Positions 10,636 through 13,698 of a stretch of 13,949 nt of DNA are shown here, one piece after another; position 1 is the first letter of the stretch; each line of letters opens with the position of its first letter. The translations under genes and the position numbers were made by a program. The notes under the pieces were generated by a model that did not search any database, had not been told where the DNA came from, and was given only the letters and a program-made list of their open reading frames with translations. This DNA comes from Gemmatimonadota bacterium (GTDB lineage Bacteria; Gemmatimonadota; Gemmatimonadetes; Gemmatimonadales; GWC2-71-9), in NCBI GenBank assembly GCA_003221985.1, contig QHUQ01000107.1:1-13949 (forward strand). The letters run 5' to 3'.

Positions 10636-11712
10636 TTACCCCCGTCGCAACTCAAACAGCGCAATCTCTGGTGGCACAAAAACCCGCAACGGCACGCCTA
10701 CCACGCCGATCCCGCGACTCACATAGAGCTGACTGCTCCCCTGGGTGAAATGGCCCATCACGTATTTCGTGATCAGGCGGCCGGGGGACCAACCGACCAC
10801 CGGCAGGTAGAACTGACCGCCATGGATGTGGCCGGCGAGGGTCAGGGGAATCGCGCGCGGGGCGGCGCCGTCGAACGCACCGGGGCGGTGCGCGAGCAGA
10901 ATCCGGAACGCGTCCGTCGCCGGCGGTGTGAGGCGGAGTGCGGCATCGAGGTCGGCGTCCTGGGGATCGATGACGGCATCCTGGCCGGTGTAACGATCGT
11001 GGTTGCCGAGCACGGTCACCACGCCGAGTGACGCGTGCAGGTCGCGAAAGGCACGGACGTAGTCGGGGATGAACGATGGAGAGATGTCGATCATGTCTCC
11101 CGTCTGCACGATGAGATCGGCGCCCAGCGCGTTGGTCTGCGCGACGATCGCTCGCATCTTCTCTTCCGACATGTGGATGCCGGCGTGCACGTCCGAGAGA
11201 TGCGCGATGCGGATGCCGTCGAGACCGGGCGGCAGGTCGGGAAACAGGAGCGTGCGCCTGGTTATCGACGGCAGGCGCTCGGCGCTCCAAATACCGTAGG
11301 CGGACACGCCGAGACCGGCGGCGGCGTAGGCGTAGGTGGCGCGAGCAAGGAATTGACGGCGGGACAAGGCGGTTGGGCGGTTAGGCGGTTGGGCGGTTGG
11401 AGAAGCCCGCAGTTTACTAACCGCCCAACCGCCTAACCGCCGAACCGCCTTCCCAAGGATGTACACCGCCACCAGCCCACAAAAAATCCAGCCGAGCAGC
11501 TGCCACGCGATCCAGGGTGCGATGTACGGCGTGCGGCTGATGCCCCACAAGCTGCCGGAGAACATCCGCACCGCGACGATGACCCAGGGGATGTTGAAAA
11601 CCACGAAGAGGAGCGCCAGCGGACGGCGCGCGGTCAGCGGCAGGCGTTCGCGCAGGTACAGGTACAGCAGCAACTGCGGCGCTGCGAACAGCAACAGATA
11701 AATTAGGGTCAT
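10636..11712 (-). CDS. Membrane-anchored metallophosphoesterase (YkuE/YaeI-like)
   Basis: A calcineurin-like phosphoesterase with a two-metal active site. Helices at about 2-20, 31-51 and 64-86 are followed by a linker (88-116), then an SRRQFLAR twin-arginine-like motif (117-124) with a fourth helix (125-142), and the catalytic domain from about 165. Metal-binding motifs are in order: DVH (D174, H176), GDMID (D206), GNHD (N237, H238), H275 and GHIHGG (H295, H297). The distance from GNHD to the next histidine is only 37 residues; relatives usually have about 35 more, so an internal segment seems missing and the spot carries a seven-residue near-duplication (QDAVIDP/QDADLDA). The linker is encoded by a repeat hairpin. 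The ATG (11710-11712) shares bases with the start of the opposite gene. Substrate unknown; this family includes UDP-diacylglucosamine hydrolase-type activities. Confidence 0.85.
   Translation of the reverse strand: MTLIYLLLFAAPQLLLYLYLRERLPLTARRPLALLFVVFNIPWVIVAVRMFSGSLWGISRTPYIAPWIAWQLLGWIFCGLVAVYILGKAVRRLGGWAVSKLRASPTAQPPNRPTALSRRQFLARATYAYAAAGLGVSAYGIWSAERLPSITRRTLLFPDLPPGLDGIRIAHLSDVHAGIHMSEEKMRAIVAQTNALGADLIVQTGDMIDISPSFIPDYVRAFRDLHASLGVVTVLGNHDRYTGQDAVIDPQDADLDAALRLTPPATDAFRILLAHRPGAFDGAAPRAIPLTLAGHIHGGQFYLPVVGWSPGRLITKYVMGHFTQGSSQLYVSRGIGVVGVPLRVFVPPEIALFELRRG
11366..11451. repeat. Inverted repeat built from four 8-bp units per arm, inside the phosphoesterase gene
   Basis: On the plus strand 11368-11399 is GGCGGTT followed by G, A, G, G, four 8-bp units in tandem. 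After an 18-base spacer, 11418-11449 is the same array in reverse complement (TAACCGCC, CAACCGCC, TAACCGCC, GAACCGCC). As a hairpin the arms 11366-11398 and 11419-11451 pair at 32 of 33 positions. The array codes for residues 88-116, a non-conserved linker between membrane helices. The 8-bp unit is not a multiple of three, so the repeat is a property of the DNA, not of the protein. Confidence 0.92.
11699..11704 (+). promoter_or_regulatory. -10-like element of the S41-like gene
   Basis: TAAATT lies six bases before the ATG at 11711 with no Shine-Dalgarno between, again the spacing of a leaderless transcript. No clear -35 is seen. It lies inside the coding sequence of the divergent phosphoesterase gene. 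Confidence 0.4.
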
Positions 11713-11713: not shown

Positions 11714-12883
11714 CCATCCCGTACGTCGTGGCTTTTGGTGATGTTCCCCGCGCTGCTCGCGGCGCAGCGTTCATCGCCCGTCGAGCGGCAGCTGGTCGCG
11801 GCCGGCGTCTGGGCGGAAGCGCGCTACAACTATGCCTACTGGGACGCCGTGCGCGCGAACTGGGACTCCGCGTTGCTGCGGAGCATCGAACGCCGGCCCT
11901 TCATCATGGACTACGCCACGAACGATGAGATGCGCGTCGCGCGGCCTGAACGGCTGGCGGAGATCCTCGCGGTCCAGGGGATTCCCGCGGCGGTCTGGAT
12001 CCGCGACTCCGTGTTGCCCGAGATCTCCGCCGCCACGGAGGCGAGCCGCTGGGAGCGCGCCGTGGCGGCCATGCTGGAGGGGGAGCGCAGTACCGCCTTG
12101 CATCTGCTGTTGCGGCTCCCCGGCGGCACGGAGCGGGGAGCGAGCGTCACGCGCAGCGTGCCGCTCACGGCTCAATCAGTGCTCGAGCGGCCGGCGGCGG
12201 CACTCGAAGCCGACACGCTCGCGGATGGGGCGATCTGGGTGCGGGTGAACTCCTTCGCCGATCCCGACGTCCTGGCGCTGTTCGATCGCGTGCTGGGAGG
12301 CGCTCCCCGCGAGGGGCCACGGCATCACGGCCTCATCCTCGATTTGCGGGAGACGACATGGACAGCGGGAGGCCGCGAGCACGGGTATGCGATGCTCGCC
12401 CGGCTCATCGAGCGCCCGGTGCTGACGTCACGCTGGCGGACGCCGCAGTATCGTCCCGCGTACCGGGGCAGTGATTTGCCGGACTCCGCGGGCGCCTGGC
12501 TCACCGCGCCGTCCGACACGATCTGGCCGCCGCCGAGCCGCGAGCGCGTCCCCTACACCGGCCCCGTAGCGGTGCTGTGCTCGTCACGCACGGCGGGACC
12601 CGCCGAGGATTTTCTCGTGGCGTTTCGCGGCGGCAACCGCGGCCCCATCATCGGTGAGCCGTCGGCCGGCAGTACGGGGCAGACGGCAGTCCTGTCGCTC
12701 GCGGGCGGGTGGCAGCTGCGCGTCACCGTCACGCGCGACGCGTATCCGGACGGCAGGGAATTCGTGCGCACCGGAATCGTCCCGGAGCGCGCGGTCGAGG
12801 TGCGGGTCGCCGACGTGCTCGCAGGACGTGACGCGGCGCTGGAGCGGGCGCGCGCCTACCTCATGGAGATCGCCCGCCGCTAG
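11711..12883 (+). CDS. Exported S41-peptidase-like protein lacking the expected catalytic serine
   Basis: A 390-residue secreted protein with a signal peptide (SWLLVMFPALLAAQ, 6-19). The C-terminal half has the S41 (C-terminal processing peptidase/tricorn core) fold signature: IWVRVNSFADPD (175-186), GLILDLR (207-213), GPVAVLCSSRTAGPAEDF (284-301), IIGEPSAGSTGQ (313-324) and YPDGREFVRTGIVPER (345-360). Relatives read RTxSAAEDF at the nucleophile; here the serine position is G296 (RTAGPAEDF), and DLRxNxGG is changed to DLRETTWTAGG. The active site is therefore probably lost and the protein may bind peptides or act as a scaffold. S291 or S292 as an alternative nucleophile is less likely by position. 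N-terminal residues YNYAYWDAV and NWDSAL match the helical start of this S41 subgroup. Its stop shares a CTAG with the convergent gene. Confidence 0.8.
   Translation: MPSRTSWLLVMFPALLAAQRSSPVERQLVAAGVWAEARYNYAYWDAVRANWDSALLRSIERRPFIMDYATNDEMRVARPERLAEILAVQGIPAAVWIRDSVLPEISAATEASRWERAVAAMLEGERSTALHLLLRLPGGTERGASVTRSVPLTAQSVLERPAAALEADTLADGAIWVRVNSFADPDVLALFDRVLGGAPREGPRHHGLILDLRETTWTAGGREHGYAMLARLIERPVLTSRWRTPQYRPAYRGSDLPDSAGAWLTAPSDTIWPPPSRERVPYTGPVAVLCSSRTAGPAEDFLVAFRGGNRGPIIGEPSAGSTGQTAVLSLAGGWQLRVTVTRDAYPDGREFVRTGIVPERAVEVRVADVLAGRDAALERARAYLMEIARR
12880..12883. other. Second shared CTAG forming two convergent stop codons
   Basis: The S41-like gene stops with TAG at 12881-12883 and the dienelactone-hydrolase-like gene stops with TAG read from 12882-12880. 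As at 8761-8764, the palindrome CTAG serves both genes, with a four-base overlap. Confidence 0.9.
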
Positions 12884-13698
12884 CTCTTGAGCTGCCCGCG
12901 GAAAAAGCGGATCACGGCATTCCAGGCGCTGTCGGCGACCTCGGGCTTCTCGCGCGTGCGCAGGAAGCCGTGCCCGACGCCCGGATAGATGGCGTACGGA
13001 TACTCCTTGCCGGCGGCGTGCATCGCCGCGGCCGCATCGGGCAGTCCCGCATCGATGCGCGCATCGTTCTCCGCATAGACGCCCAGTCCCTTCGCGCGGA
13101 TCTTGGCCATGTCTGCCGGATTCGGGCTGGGGCCATAGCACACCACGAAAGCCTTGAGCTCCGGCGCATTCGTCGCATAACGGAAGCTCTGGCCGCCGCC
13201 CCAACAGAATCCGATGACGCCGATCTCGTTCGCGCGCACGGGACGCAAGGAGTTGACGTAGCGCCGGGTGGCATCGAGGTCCTGTGTCACCGTATCGGCG
13301 TTCAGTGTGGCGATCAGCTTGCGTGCTGAGTCCTGCGACGCGGGAGTGCCCCCGCGGCGCGACAACAGGTCCGGCGCGATCGCGACGAAGCCGTCCTTGG
13401 CGAGCTGCTCGGTCGTCTGCCGGATGAAGTCCGACATCCCGAAGATCTCGTGGATCACGATCACGGCGGGCGCGGGCTGCGGACGCTCCGGATACGCGAT
13501 GTAGGCGGTCACCGTATCCTTGCCGCTGGTGTACTTCACGTATTCAGCGTGAATATCGGGCGGCGAGAGGCGGCGAAGGGCGGCGAAGGGCGGCAAATTC
13601 ATCGCCGCGGTCGCCACGATCGCCACGCCGGCTATCACCCCTGCCTTTGCCGCCATTCGCCGCCACTCGCCGCCCTTCGCCGCCGTATTACCGTCCAT
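12880..13698 (-). CDS. Dienelactone hydrolase-family alpha/beta hydrolase, probably exported or membrane-anchored
   Basis: A 272-residue alpha/beta hydrolase. The DLH-type active site is complete: E84 in HEIFG, nucleophile C165 in GFCWGGG, D212 in ENDARID and H243 in GVGHGF, matching the Cys-Asp-His triad and glutamate of carboxymethylenebutenolidase. An N-terminal hydrophobic stretch (AGVIAGVAIVATAAM, 19-33) after basic residues looks like a signal or anchor, so it probably acts outside the cytoplasm; the substrate is unknown. The ATG (13696-13698) has GGAGG (13706-13710) seven bases upstream and overlaps the end of the sugar dehydrogenase gene by 11 bases, so the pair is co-transcribed. The signal-peptide region is encoded by a repeat hairpin: residues 5-18 from one arm, the hydrophobic core from the loop, and 34-47 from the other arm. 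Confidence 0.87.
   Translation of the reverse strand: MDGNTAAKGGEWRRMAAKAGVIAGVAIVATAAMNLPPFAALRRLSPPDIHAEYVKYTSGKDTVTAYIAYPERPQPAPAVIVIHEIFGMSDFIRQTTEQLAKDGFVAIAPDLLSRRGGTPASQDSARKLIATLNADTVTQDLDATRRYVNSLRPVRANEIGVIGFCWGGGQSFRYATNAPELKAFVVCYGPSPNPADMAKIRAKGLGVYAENDARIDAGLPDAAAAMHAAGKEYPYAIYPGVGHGFLRTREKPEVADSAWNAVIRFFRGQLKS
13558..13685. repeat. Inverted repeat built from four 10-bp units per arm, inside the hydrolase gene
   Basis: On the plus strand 13558-13597 is four tandem 10-bp units of the form NGGCGGCGAR, the last ending GGCGGCAAA. After a 48-base spacer, 13646-13685 holds four such units in reverse complement, its innermost unit also ending GGCGGCAAA when read on the minus strand. 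By direct comparison the arms match at 34 of 40 positions, differing mainly at the first and last base of the units. It covers the N-terminal signal region of the hydrolase gene. Ten-base units shift the reading frame each time, so the encoded protein is not repetitive. Confidence 0.92.

Follow-up and report, generated by a model that had tools for sequence, protein, structure and literature searches.

Mirror tandem arrays in protein-coding genes of Gemmatimonadota: a kept architecture with changing sequence

Described repeats of related architecture

The nearest precedent for the repeats reported here is the heptamer hairpin P6b in the group I intron of the Nostoc tRNA-Leu(UAA) gene, which occurs with Class I (TDNGATT) and Class II (NNTGAGT) repeats. 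According to the available text of its description, the stem consists of complementary seven-nucleotide repeats, and wholesale replacement of the class has recurred at a single orthologous site, in conflict with the gene tree (PMC4476775). The short tandemly repeated repetitive (STRR) hairpins found in filamentous cyanobacteria, for instance between hupS and hupL, are usually composed of 7-bp tandem repeats and lie near gene ends (PMC2670836). Coding inverted repeats with arms evolving in concert have been reported for the mitochondrial genes of Nematomorpha, where template switching was proposed; these animal palindromes are perfect, up to 284 bp long, and the text at hand mentions no short tandem units (PMC6649704). 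In Bacillus, constant-length, variable-sequence tandem repeats (20-21 or 52 nt) keep the length of the unit while its sequence varies, but they are direct arrays of longer units, for which the available text mentions neither hairpin nor palindrome (PMC8161180). Regarding possible mechanisms, template switching homogenises inverted-repeat arms in the coding DNA of yeast (PMC8604942), and it can both create and preserve RNA stems (PMC8794818).

The current study started from a stretch of 13,949 nt from a Gemmatimonadota bacterium (contig QHUQ01000107.1), which is referred to as the window. It carries two mirror tandem arrays, i.e., usually three to four tandem units of 7, 8 or 10 bp, followed by a spacer and then by the units in reverse complement. 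As in Nostoc P6b, they are complementary short tandem arrays that stay in place while the unit class of both arms is replaced. However, P6b is a single non-coding site with two heptamer classes, whereas mirror arrays occupy several sites, both coding and intergenic, and have many different 7-, 8- and 10-bp units. The cyanobacterial STRR hairpins covered by the available text are intergenic, whereas mirror arrays are also present inside genes. They were moreover not traced to filamentous cyanobacteria: among the listed protein relatives, all those with an organism name belong to Gemmatimonadales or Gemmatimonadetes, the best 29 loci (L001 to L029) all come from assemblies with a Gemmatimonad- name, and a Nostoc plasmid stretch of 50 kb, which is a small sample, had no mirror pair and one direct pair. 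In contrast to the Bacillus repeats, mirror arrays are inverted and built from short units. Among the titles and abstract openings listed in a literature search, mostly outside subscription journals, none described coding mirror arrays in this phylum. With these arrays, the P6b- and STRR-like architecture is also represented by units of 8 and 10 bp, within protein-coding sequence and in a further phylum.

Two arrays in the window and their counterparts elsewhere

The features of the two arrays and their host genes are as follows.

10636..11712, minus strand: host gene of the first array, membrane metallophosphoesterase (PF00149), 358 aa; by inspection, the array forms the linker from the membrane part to the SRRQFL segment
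11366..11398, minus strand: 3' (coding-strand) arm of the first array, ending directly before the Tat-like motif SRRQFL
11399..11418, minus strand: spacer of the first array, 20 nt
11419..11451, minus strand: 5' (coding-strand) arm of the first array, four 8-bp units GGCGGTTN
12880..13698, minus strand: host gene of the second array, DLH-family (dienelactone hydrolase, PF01738) protein, 272 aa
13559..13597, minus strand: 3' (coding-strand) C-rich arm of the second array, reverse complement of the 5' arm; encodes the stretch until the conserved mature part (LPPFAALRRLSPP)
13598..13645, minus strand: spacer or hairpin loop of the second array, 48 nt; encodes the hydrophobic core
13646..13684, minus strand: 5' (coding-strand) G-rich arm of the second array, four 10-bp units of the GGCGGCGA type; encodes AAKGGEWRRMAAK, by inspection the n-region of the signal peptide

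The first array has arms of 33 nt (11366-11398 and 11419-11451) that are 97% complementary, 20 nt apart and of period 8, and it lies 2 kb from the DLH array. For the latter, the predicted mirror structure with a 10-bp unit and four units per arm was confirmed. Its arms (13559-13597 and 13646-13684) measure 39 nt each, are 87% complementary and 48 nt apart, and have a period of 10 with 3.7 and 3.6 copies; the former reads GGCGGCGAGAGGCGGCGAAGGGCGGCGAAGGGCGGCAAA on the plus strand, and the latter is the reverse complement. The TAA stop codon of an upstream reading frame (13688-13690, minus strand) is located 8 nt within the DLH gene. On the coding strand of this gene, the G-rich arm, the spacer and the C-rich arm correspond to the n-region, the hydrophobic core and the c-region of a signal peptide assigned by eye, as were all signal peptides in this study, and the expectation that the spacer encodes the signal-peptide core was borne out by this inspection. 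The second array covers residues of about 5-47 of the DLH protein, and the PF01738 match begins at residue 64; the first covers residues of about 88-116 of the phosphatase, with the PF00149 match beginning at residue 167. Both arrays are thus outside the matched catalytic domains, in the 5' part of genes for exported or membrane proteins, as had been proposed from the sequence. The same holds for the genes studied in general, where arrays are found at the start of genes for exported-looking proteins or in a membrane-protein linker. An Rfam search of the window for known RNA families gave no match at gathering score.

With respect to the same sites in relatives, 128 orthologous sequences were collected for the DLH gene, the phosphatase gene and the two genes g142 and g149, which encode exported-looking proteins and were picked for carrying the GGCGGTTN array in other genomes (matches in 26 and 32 of the 34 genomes screened per gene). 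After removal of duplicates and of sequences shorter than 40 nt, 108 remained, and an inverted repeat scoring above all 60 shuffles was present at the orthologous site in 71 of them (DLH 25/42, phosphatase 12/16, g142 15/21, g149 19/29). The 37 misses comprise, among others, ten DLH relatives of at most 64% identity, the array-free g142 orthologues L162 (88% identical in protein) and L178, arrays beaten by just one shuffle, and eroded or short arrays. They also include the phosphatase of L001, which reached a score of 42 against a null maximum of 23 after re-anchoring but is excluded from the total of 71. Both arms share a period of 7, 8 or 10 in 64 of the 71 significant arrays, and as none of these periods is divisible by 3, they cannot result from repetition of codons.

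The units themselves differ widely. At the DLH site they are 10-bp GGCGGCGAA in L001 to L003, 10-bp GGGCGGTAAG in L005, 10-bp GGTGGAGGGC in L016, 8-bp GGCGGTTN in L006 and L012, 8-bp GGTTGGAA in L008, and GGACGGCC in L009. The phosphatase linker has GGCGGTTN in the window, L003, L006 and L007, GGGCGGTC in L011, GTGCGTC in L004 and L005, GTGCGTG in L012 and L016, and GGGAGCA in L014 and L015; 7-bp units occur there in L004, L005, L012, L013, L015 and L016, next to the 8 and 10 bp of the two window arrays. What is kept is accordingly the architecture and the place, not the sequence. The GGCGG core, originally noted in both units, is indeed common to both window arrays but missing from others (GTGCGTC, GGGAGCA, GGTTGGAA, GGTGTCA, GCGGATT and more). 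Likewise, the proposal that an insertion created or rebuilt the N-terminus holds insofar as N-termini differ among orthologues, some of which are array-free; a clean insertion is not seen, as the array-free ones have shorter, different signal peptides and offer no simple empty site.

The suggestion that the window holds two members of a larger family was substantiated by further copies in other orthologues, in g142 and g149, and in samples of two genomes (G001 and G002). An array-pair detector returned two inverted and no direct pairs in the window, and 23 inverted against no direct pairs in 33 Gemmatimonadota loci (502 kb); these 23 are ascertained, with 19 of them at the DLH or the phosphatase site and another (L071) directly upstream of the DLH relative in its locus. 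Among 47 loci from other phyla, two inverted pairs and one direct pair were detected, and none in shuffles. Scanning without ascertainment covered parts of the two array-bearing genomes, with three inverted and no direct pairs in 272 kb of G001 and nine inverted (seven of them with 7-bp units) and no direct pairs in 400 kb of G002; in 800 kb from three other genomes of the family, which are more distant, there was no array pair. A more sensitive hairpin scan yielded 37 hairpins per Mb in G001 (10 hairpins) and 48 per Mb in G002 (19 hairpins), compared with 2, 0 and 10 per Mb (1, 0 and 2 hairpins) in the distant genomes and 4-5 per Mb in shuffles. Both arms were tandem with one period in 3/10 hairpins of G001, 15/19 of G002 and 0/3 of the distant genomes, as scored on the real genomes. 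According to gene calls from a simple codon-usage finder, 15 of the 29 hairpins of G001 and G002 are intergenic (7-11% of random places), six fall into the initial 150 nt of a gene (11-12%), and six are deeper within genes (74-77%), and the 12 array pairs proper split into four intergenic and eight in genes. The intergenic excess indicates that arrays are strongly over-represented between genes, with the in-gene arrays as a substantial tolerated share.

Joint turnover of the arms and exchange of whole arrays

The mean similarity of an arm to its own partner (0.87-0.89) exceeds that to the corresponding arm of an orthologue (0.63-0.69) in all four gene-identity bands, and the own partner was the more similar one in 595 of 642 orthologous pairs. 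This difference indicates concerted evolution of the arms, and higher likeness within a sequence than between orthologues is the pattern of a quasipalindrome kept up by template switching. At the level of single units, the match is better between partners than between non-partners (0.875 vs 0.800; 52 arrays). When the units were permuted and the register was re-optimised, the partner effect was weaker (39.7 vs 37.5; above the null mean in 22/37 arrays, p 0.017), and a kept order of the units between the arms is hence weakly supported.

Genes that are 91-96% identical may hold different arrays, even with another period. Three of the eight gene pairs above 0.90 identity differ in array period, namely the phosphatases of L007 (8 bp) and L004 (7 bp), whose genes are 0.96 identical, and the DLH genes of L125 (8 bp) versus L123 and L114 (both 10 bp), with identities of 0.92 and 0.91. 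Based on crude unit classes (rotational identity of at least 0.75, which in g142 lumps visibly different units) and counted as minimum changes, the 25 DLH orthologues require at least 13 changes, compared with 16.0 for shuffled labels and a value as low in 5/200 shuffles, so that the DLH labels are somewhat clustered; the corresponding minima are 6 versus 7.5 for g142 and 9 versus 9.3 for g149. Where orthologues have different units, their loops are hardly more similar to each other than loops from different genes (0.579 vs 0.568, p 0.012, for the signal-peptide genes; 0.579 vs 0.554 with the phosphatase included), which indicates that most changes replace the spacer as well. Such a replacement counts against plain arm-to-arm copying, which leaves the spacer unchanged. 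Conserved loops with swapped arms were considered as a general rule and rejected, as they were limited to single cases (L165/L168; L157/L159). Inversions of the spacer, a known footprint of template switching, amounted to two weak candidates among 281 length-matched orthologous pairs; an inversion within the signal-peptide core would probably be selected against.

The exchange of whole arrays is most evident in g142, where G010 and G002 have different arrays between flanks of 95-96% identity, with the border located at the array. By inspection, the array of G002, together with the last codons of the upstream gene, is shared with G011, whose flanks are 83-88% identical, and the array of G010 is shared with G009 at a flank identity of 77-83%. 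Array sharing in g142 (G002/G011 and G010/G009) therefore contradicts flank similarity. In the phosphatase, the differing tract extends about 50 bp into the flank, with a mosaic identity profile between L007 and L004, and in the DLH gene it reaches several hundred bp into the gene. Judged from the sequences, such tracts look like what short-tract homologous recombination would leave. The GGCGGTTN array was found in 8/102 genomes, with as many as six sites per genome that are located on separate contigs and differ in their spacers, and the reversed GGCGGTTN pattern in none of the 102. Ectopic conversion of arms would explain the presence of the GGCGGTTN array at several sites of one genome.

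Origin, upkeep and meaning of the arrays

Taken together, the reading that we prefer, with about even confidence, is that the feature is a single member of a hairpin-forming class of mirror tandem arrays in soil Gemmatimonadota, whose mirror symmetry is kept by slippage and arm-to-arm template switching and which are swapped by short-tract recombination and tolerated at junctions, signal peptides and linkers. The architecture, its recurrence, its fixed place, the joint change of the unit in both arms and the mosaic borders between two genomes are observed directly, and from them we infer slippage, template switching and ectopic spread as the steps. Replication slippage would expand and homogenise the units of one arm and thereby make the period; the arms would then pair, and template switching across the hairpin would copy changes from arm to arm, with the consequence that both arms drift together. 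Short-tract homologous recombination would swap whole arrays between lineages and loci, perhaps in addition to ectopic conversion between arrays of one genome, and arrays would persist wherever they are tolerated by protein or genome, i.e., at gene junctions, in the n- and c-regions of signal peptides beside the hydrophobic core, and in linkers. The copying step is supported in general by published work on template switching (PMC8604942, PMC8794818, PMC6649704). A function of the array itself is not needed, and a regulatory role of the hairpin is possible. No array mutation was caught in the act among the arrays compared, which counts against the reading by slippage and template switching, and so do the weakly kept unit order and the arms of L169 and L171, which have drifted apart.

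The orientation of the arms points to some selection. The G-rich arm is 5' in 71/71 significant arrays at the four coding sites, which indicates selection on peptide or transcript at the sites studied, most simply perhaps on the peptide, as a G-rich first arm encodes Arg, Gly and Trp and a C-rich one Pro, Thr and Ala; the other in-gene arrays in the samples of G001 and G002 are G-rich first in five and C-rich first in three cases. Selection for the hairpin as a structure of the mRNA directly downstream of the start codon, acting in translational coupling, export pausing or transcript stability and with the tandem units as a by-product, would account for this uniform orientation but appears rather doubtful. 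It could draw on the very stable RNA fold of the second array (-92.8 kcal/mol; 200 dinucleotide shuffles with a mean of -68.95 and an sd of 4.16, 0/200 as stable, z -5.73) and on a coupling-type junction, since the end of an upstream frame with 40 codons or more falls within -3 to +24 nt of a possible start codon in 59/59 array-bearing sequences of the three signal-peptide genes (25/25, 15/15 and 19/19). However, this junction is mostly present without a significant array, too (27/33 orthologues). The 7-bp repeat hairpins of cyanobacteria have likewise been proposed to stabilise transcripts or to couple translation, according to the available text (PMC2670836). Against a selected transcript structure stand the array-free orthologues, including L162 with its very similar protein, the mostly non-conserved loops, the intergenic and deep in-gene arrays of the sampled genomes, some of them oppositely oriented, and the tandem periods and period swaps, which it leaves unexplained. 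The mismatches between the arms add to this, with 54 G.U and 42 A.C (p 0.26) and thus no significant excess of G.U, as expected if upkeep takes place at the DNA level; RNA-level upkeep via G.U wobble was tried on the same counts and found unsupported.

A more far-reaching version, which we likewise consider doubtful, is that the arrays constitute a class of sequence-free, self-copying DNA elements, of which only the mirror-tandem architecture would be inherited. Other arrays in the genome would overwrite the arms and thereby keep changing signal peptides and linkers in many exported proteins. If true, such arrays would be a genome-wide engine of N-terminal protein novelty.

Mobile palindromes are another possible source. 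The dispersed bacterial palindromes REP, BIME and REPIN are mostly intergenic, and REP is a conserved short palindrome, in many cases with a GTAG or CGTC tag. Rickettsia palindromic elements have a conserved family sequence at dispersed sites and are not known to contain tandem units; they resemble mirror arrays in their location inside coding sequence and, unlike them, are defined by the family sequence. That Rickettsia palindromic elements are tolerated within coding sequence is documented (PMC6649704). Insertion of such an element as a whole, of the Rickettsia or the REP/REPIN type, followed by rapid divergence, is an unlikely origin. The arrays are dispersed, palindromic and in frame inside genes, one unit may occur at several sites, and arrays are replaced at orthologous sites, all of which would suit an element of this kind. 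On the other hand, no sequence is conserved between sites: the unit differs between loci and between orthologues, and one unit is present at no more than six sites per genome, with different spacers even where the unit is the same, and in 8/102 genomes. Furthermore, the differing tracts that enter the flanks in the phosphatase and DLH genes look like homologous recombination. A REP/RAYT-like origin with a transposase of the TnpA_REP type was not supported. Y1_Tnp transposases were present in 7/8 genomes, and at the 10 of 14 listed Y1 places that were examined there were other palindromes or none, with a mirror array in the stretch around one of the ten, about 4 kb away. REP, BIME and REPIN sequences with TnpA_REP (RAYT) have no sequence in common with mirror arrays, and the palindromes beside the Y1 genes are different from them. 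In four of the ten places (L135, L136, L139 and L140), an unrelated palindrome, ACCCCGGG...CCCGGGGT, lies within 800 nt of the Y1 gene, and the two are perhaps a true REP/RAYT pair of the phylum.

Quite unlikely, in our view, is that the array alleles are old and have only been reshuffled by ordinary homologous recombination, with nothing special making or keeping them now. The g142 arrays shared against flank similarity and the mosaic profile of L007 and L004 are compatible with this explanation, but it does not account for the appearance of the same new unit in both arms or for the number of unit classes. Chance, protein-level constraint or an assembly artefact, for which high G+C and Arg/Gly/Pro-rich termini raise the background, can practically be dismissed in view of shuffles, direct-repeat controls and sampled distant relatives without the pattern, the periods of 7, 8 and 10, and the protein clusters P0001 and P0008 of up to 52 and 70 member sequences with an array-coded N-terminus in common.

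Inverted tandem arrays that persist at fixed sites in coding genes, while their sequence turns over jointly in both arms, allow template switching between arms to be studied in bacteria in a natural setting, and they point to a way in which new signal peptides and linkers can arise by mutation. Part of these exported proteins appears to be rewritten continually by a process acting on the DNA. The N-termini of array-bearing proteins should be interpreted with caution, as they carry a DNA-level signal beside the protein-level one.

Several individual loci deserve mention. The DLH orthologues L013, L017, L121, L124, L126 and L127, the last four of which are among the 37 misses, have another upstream gene, a short signal peptide and no array; L120 apparently shares this other upstream context and yet carries a GGCGGTTN array. 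The phosphatase of L017 (L017:12005-13132) is devoid of the first arm and of part of the preceding membrane segment, and a stretch resembling the second arm (GTGCGTGG type) is left, perhaps due to a deletion ending inside an array. In g142 of L169 and L171, the arms have drifted to different units (GGAACGCT vs GGAAAGAC), possibly because copying between the arms has been lost. G002 (L231:4753-4890) and G001 (L099:5247-5313) contain intergenic hairpins with arms of TGTCATCCTGAGCG, which apparently belong to a different, sequence-conserved repeat family. Finally, an Acidobacteria locus (L078:19867-20003) contains a 7-bp mirror pair of the GTGCGGG type with a 75-nt spacer, and the mirror-array architecture may hence extend beyond the Gemmatimonadota.
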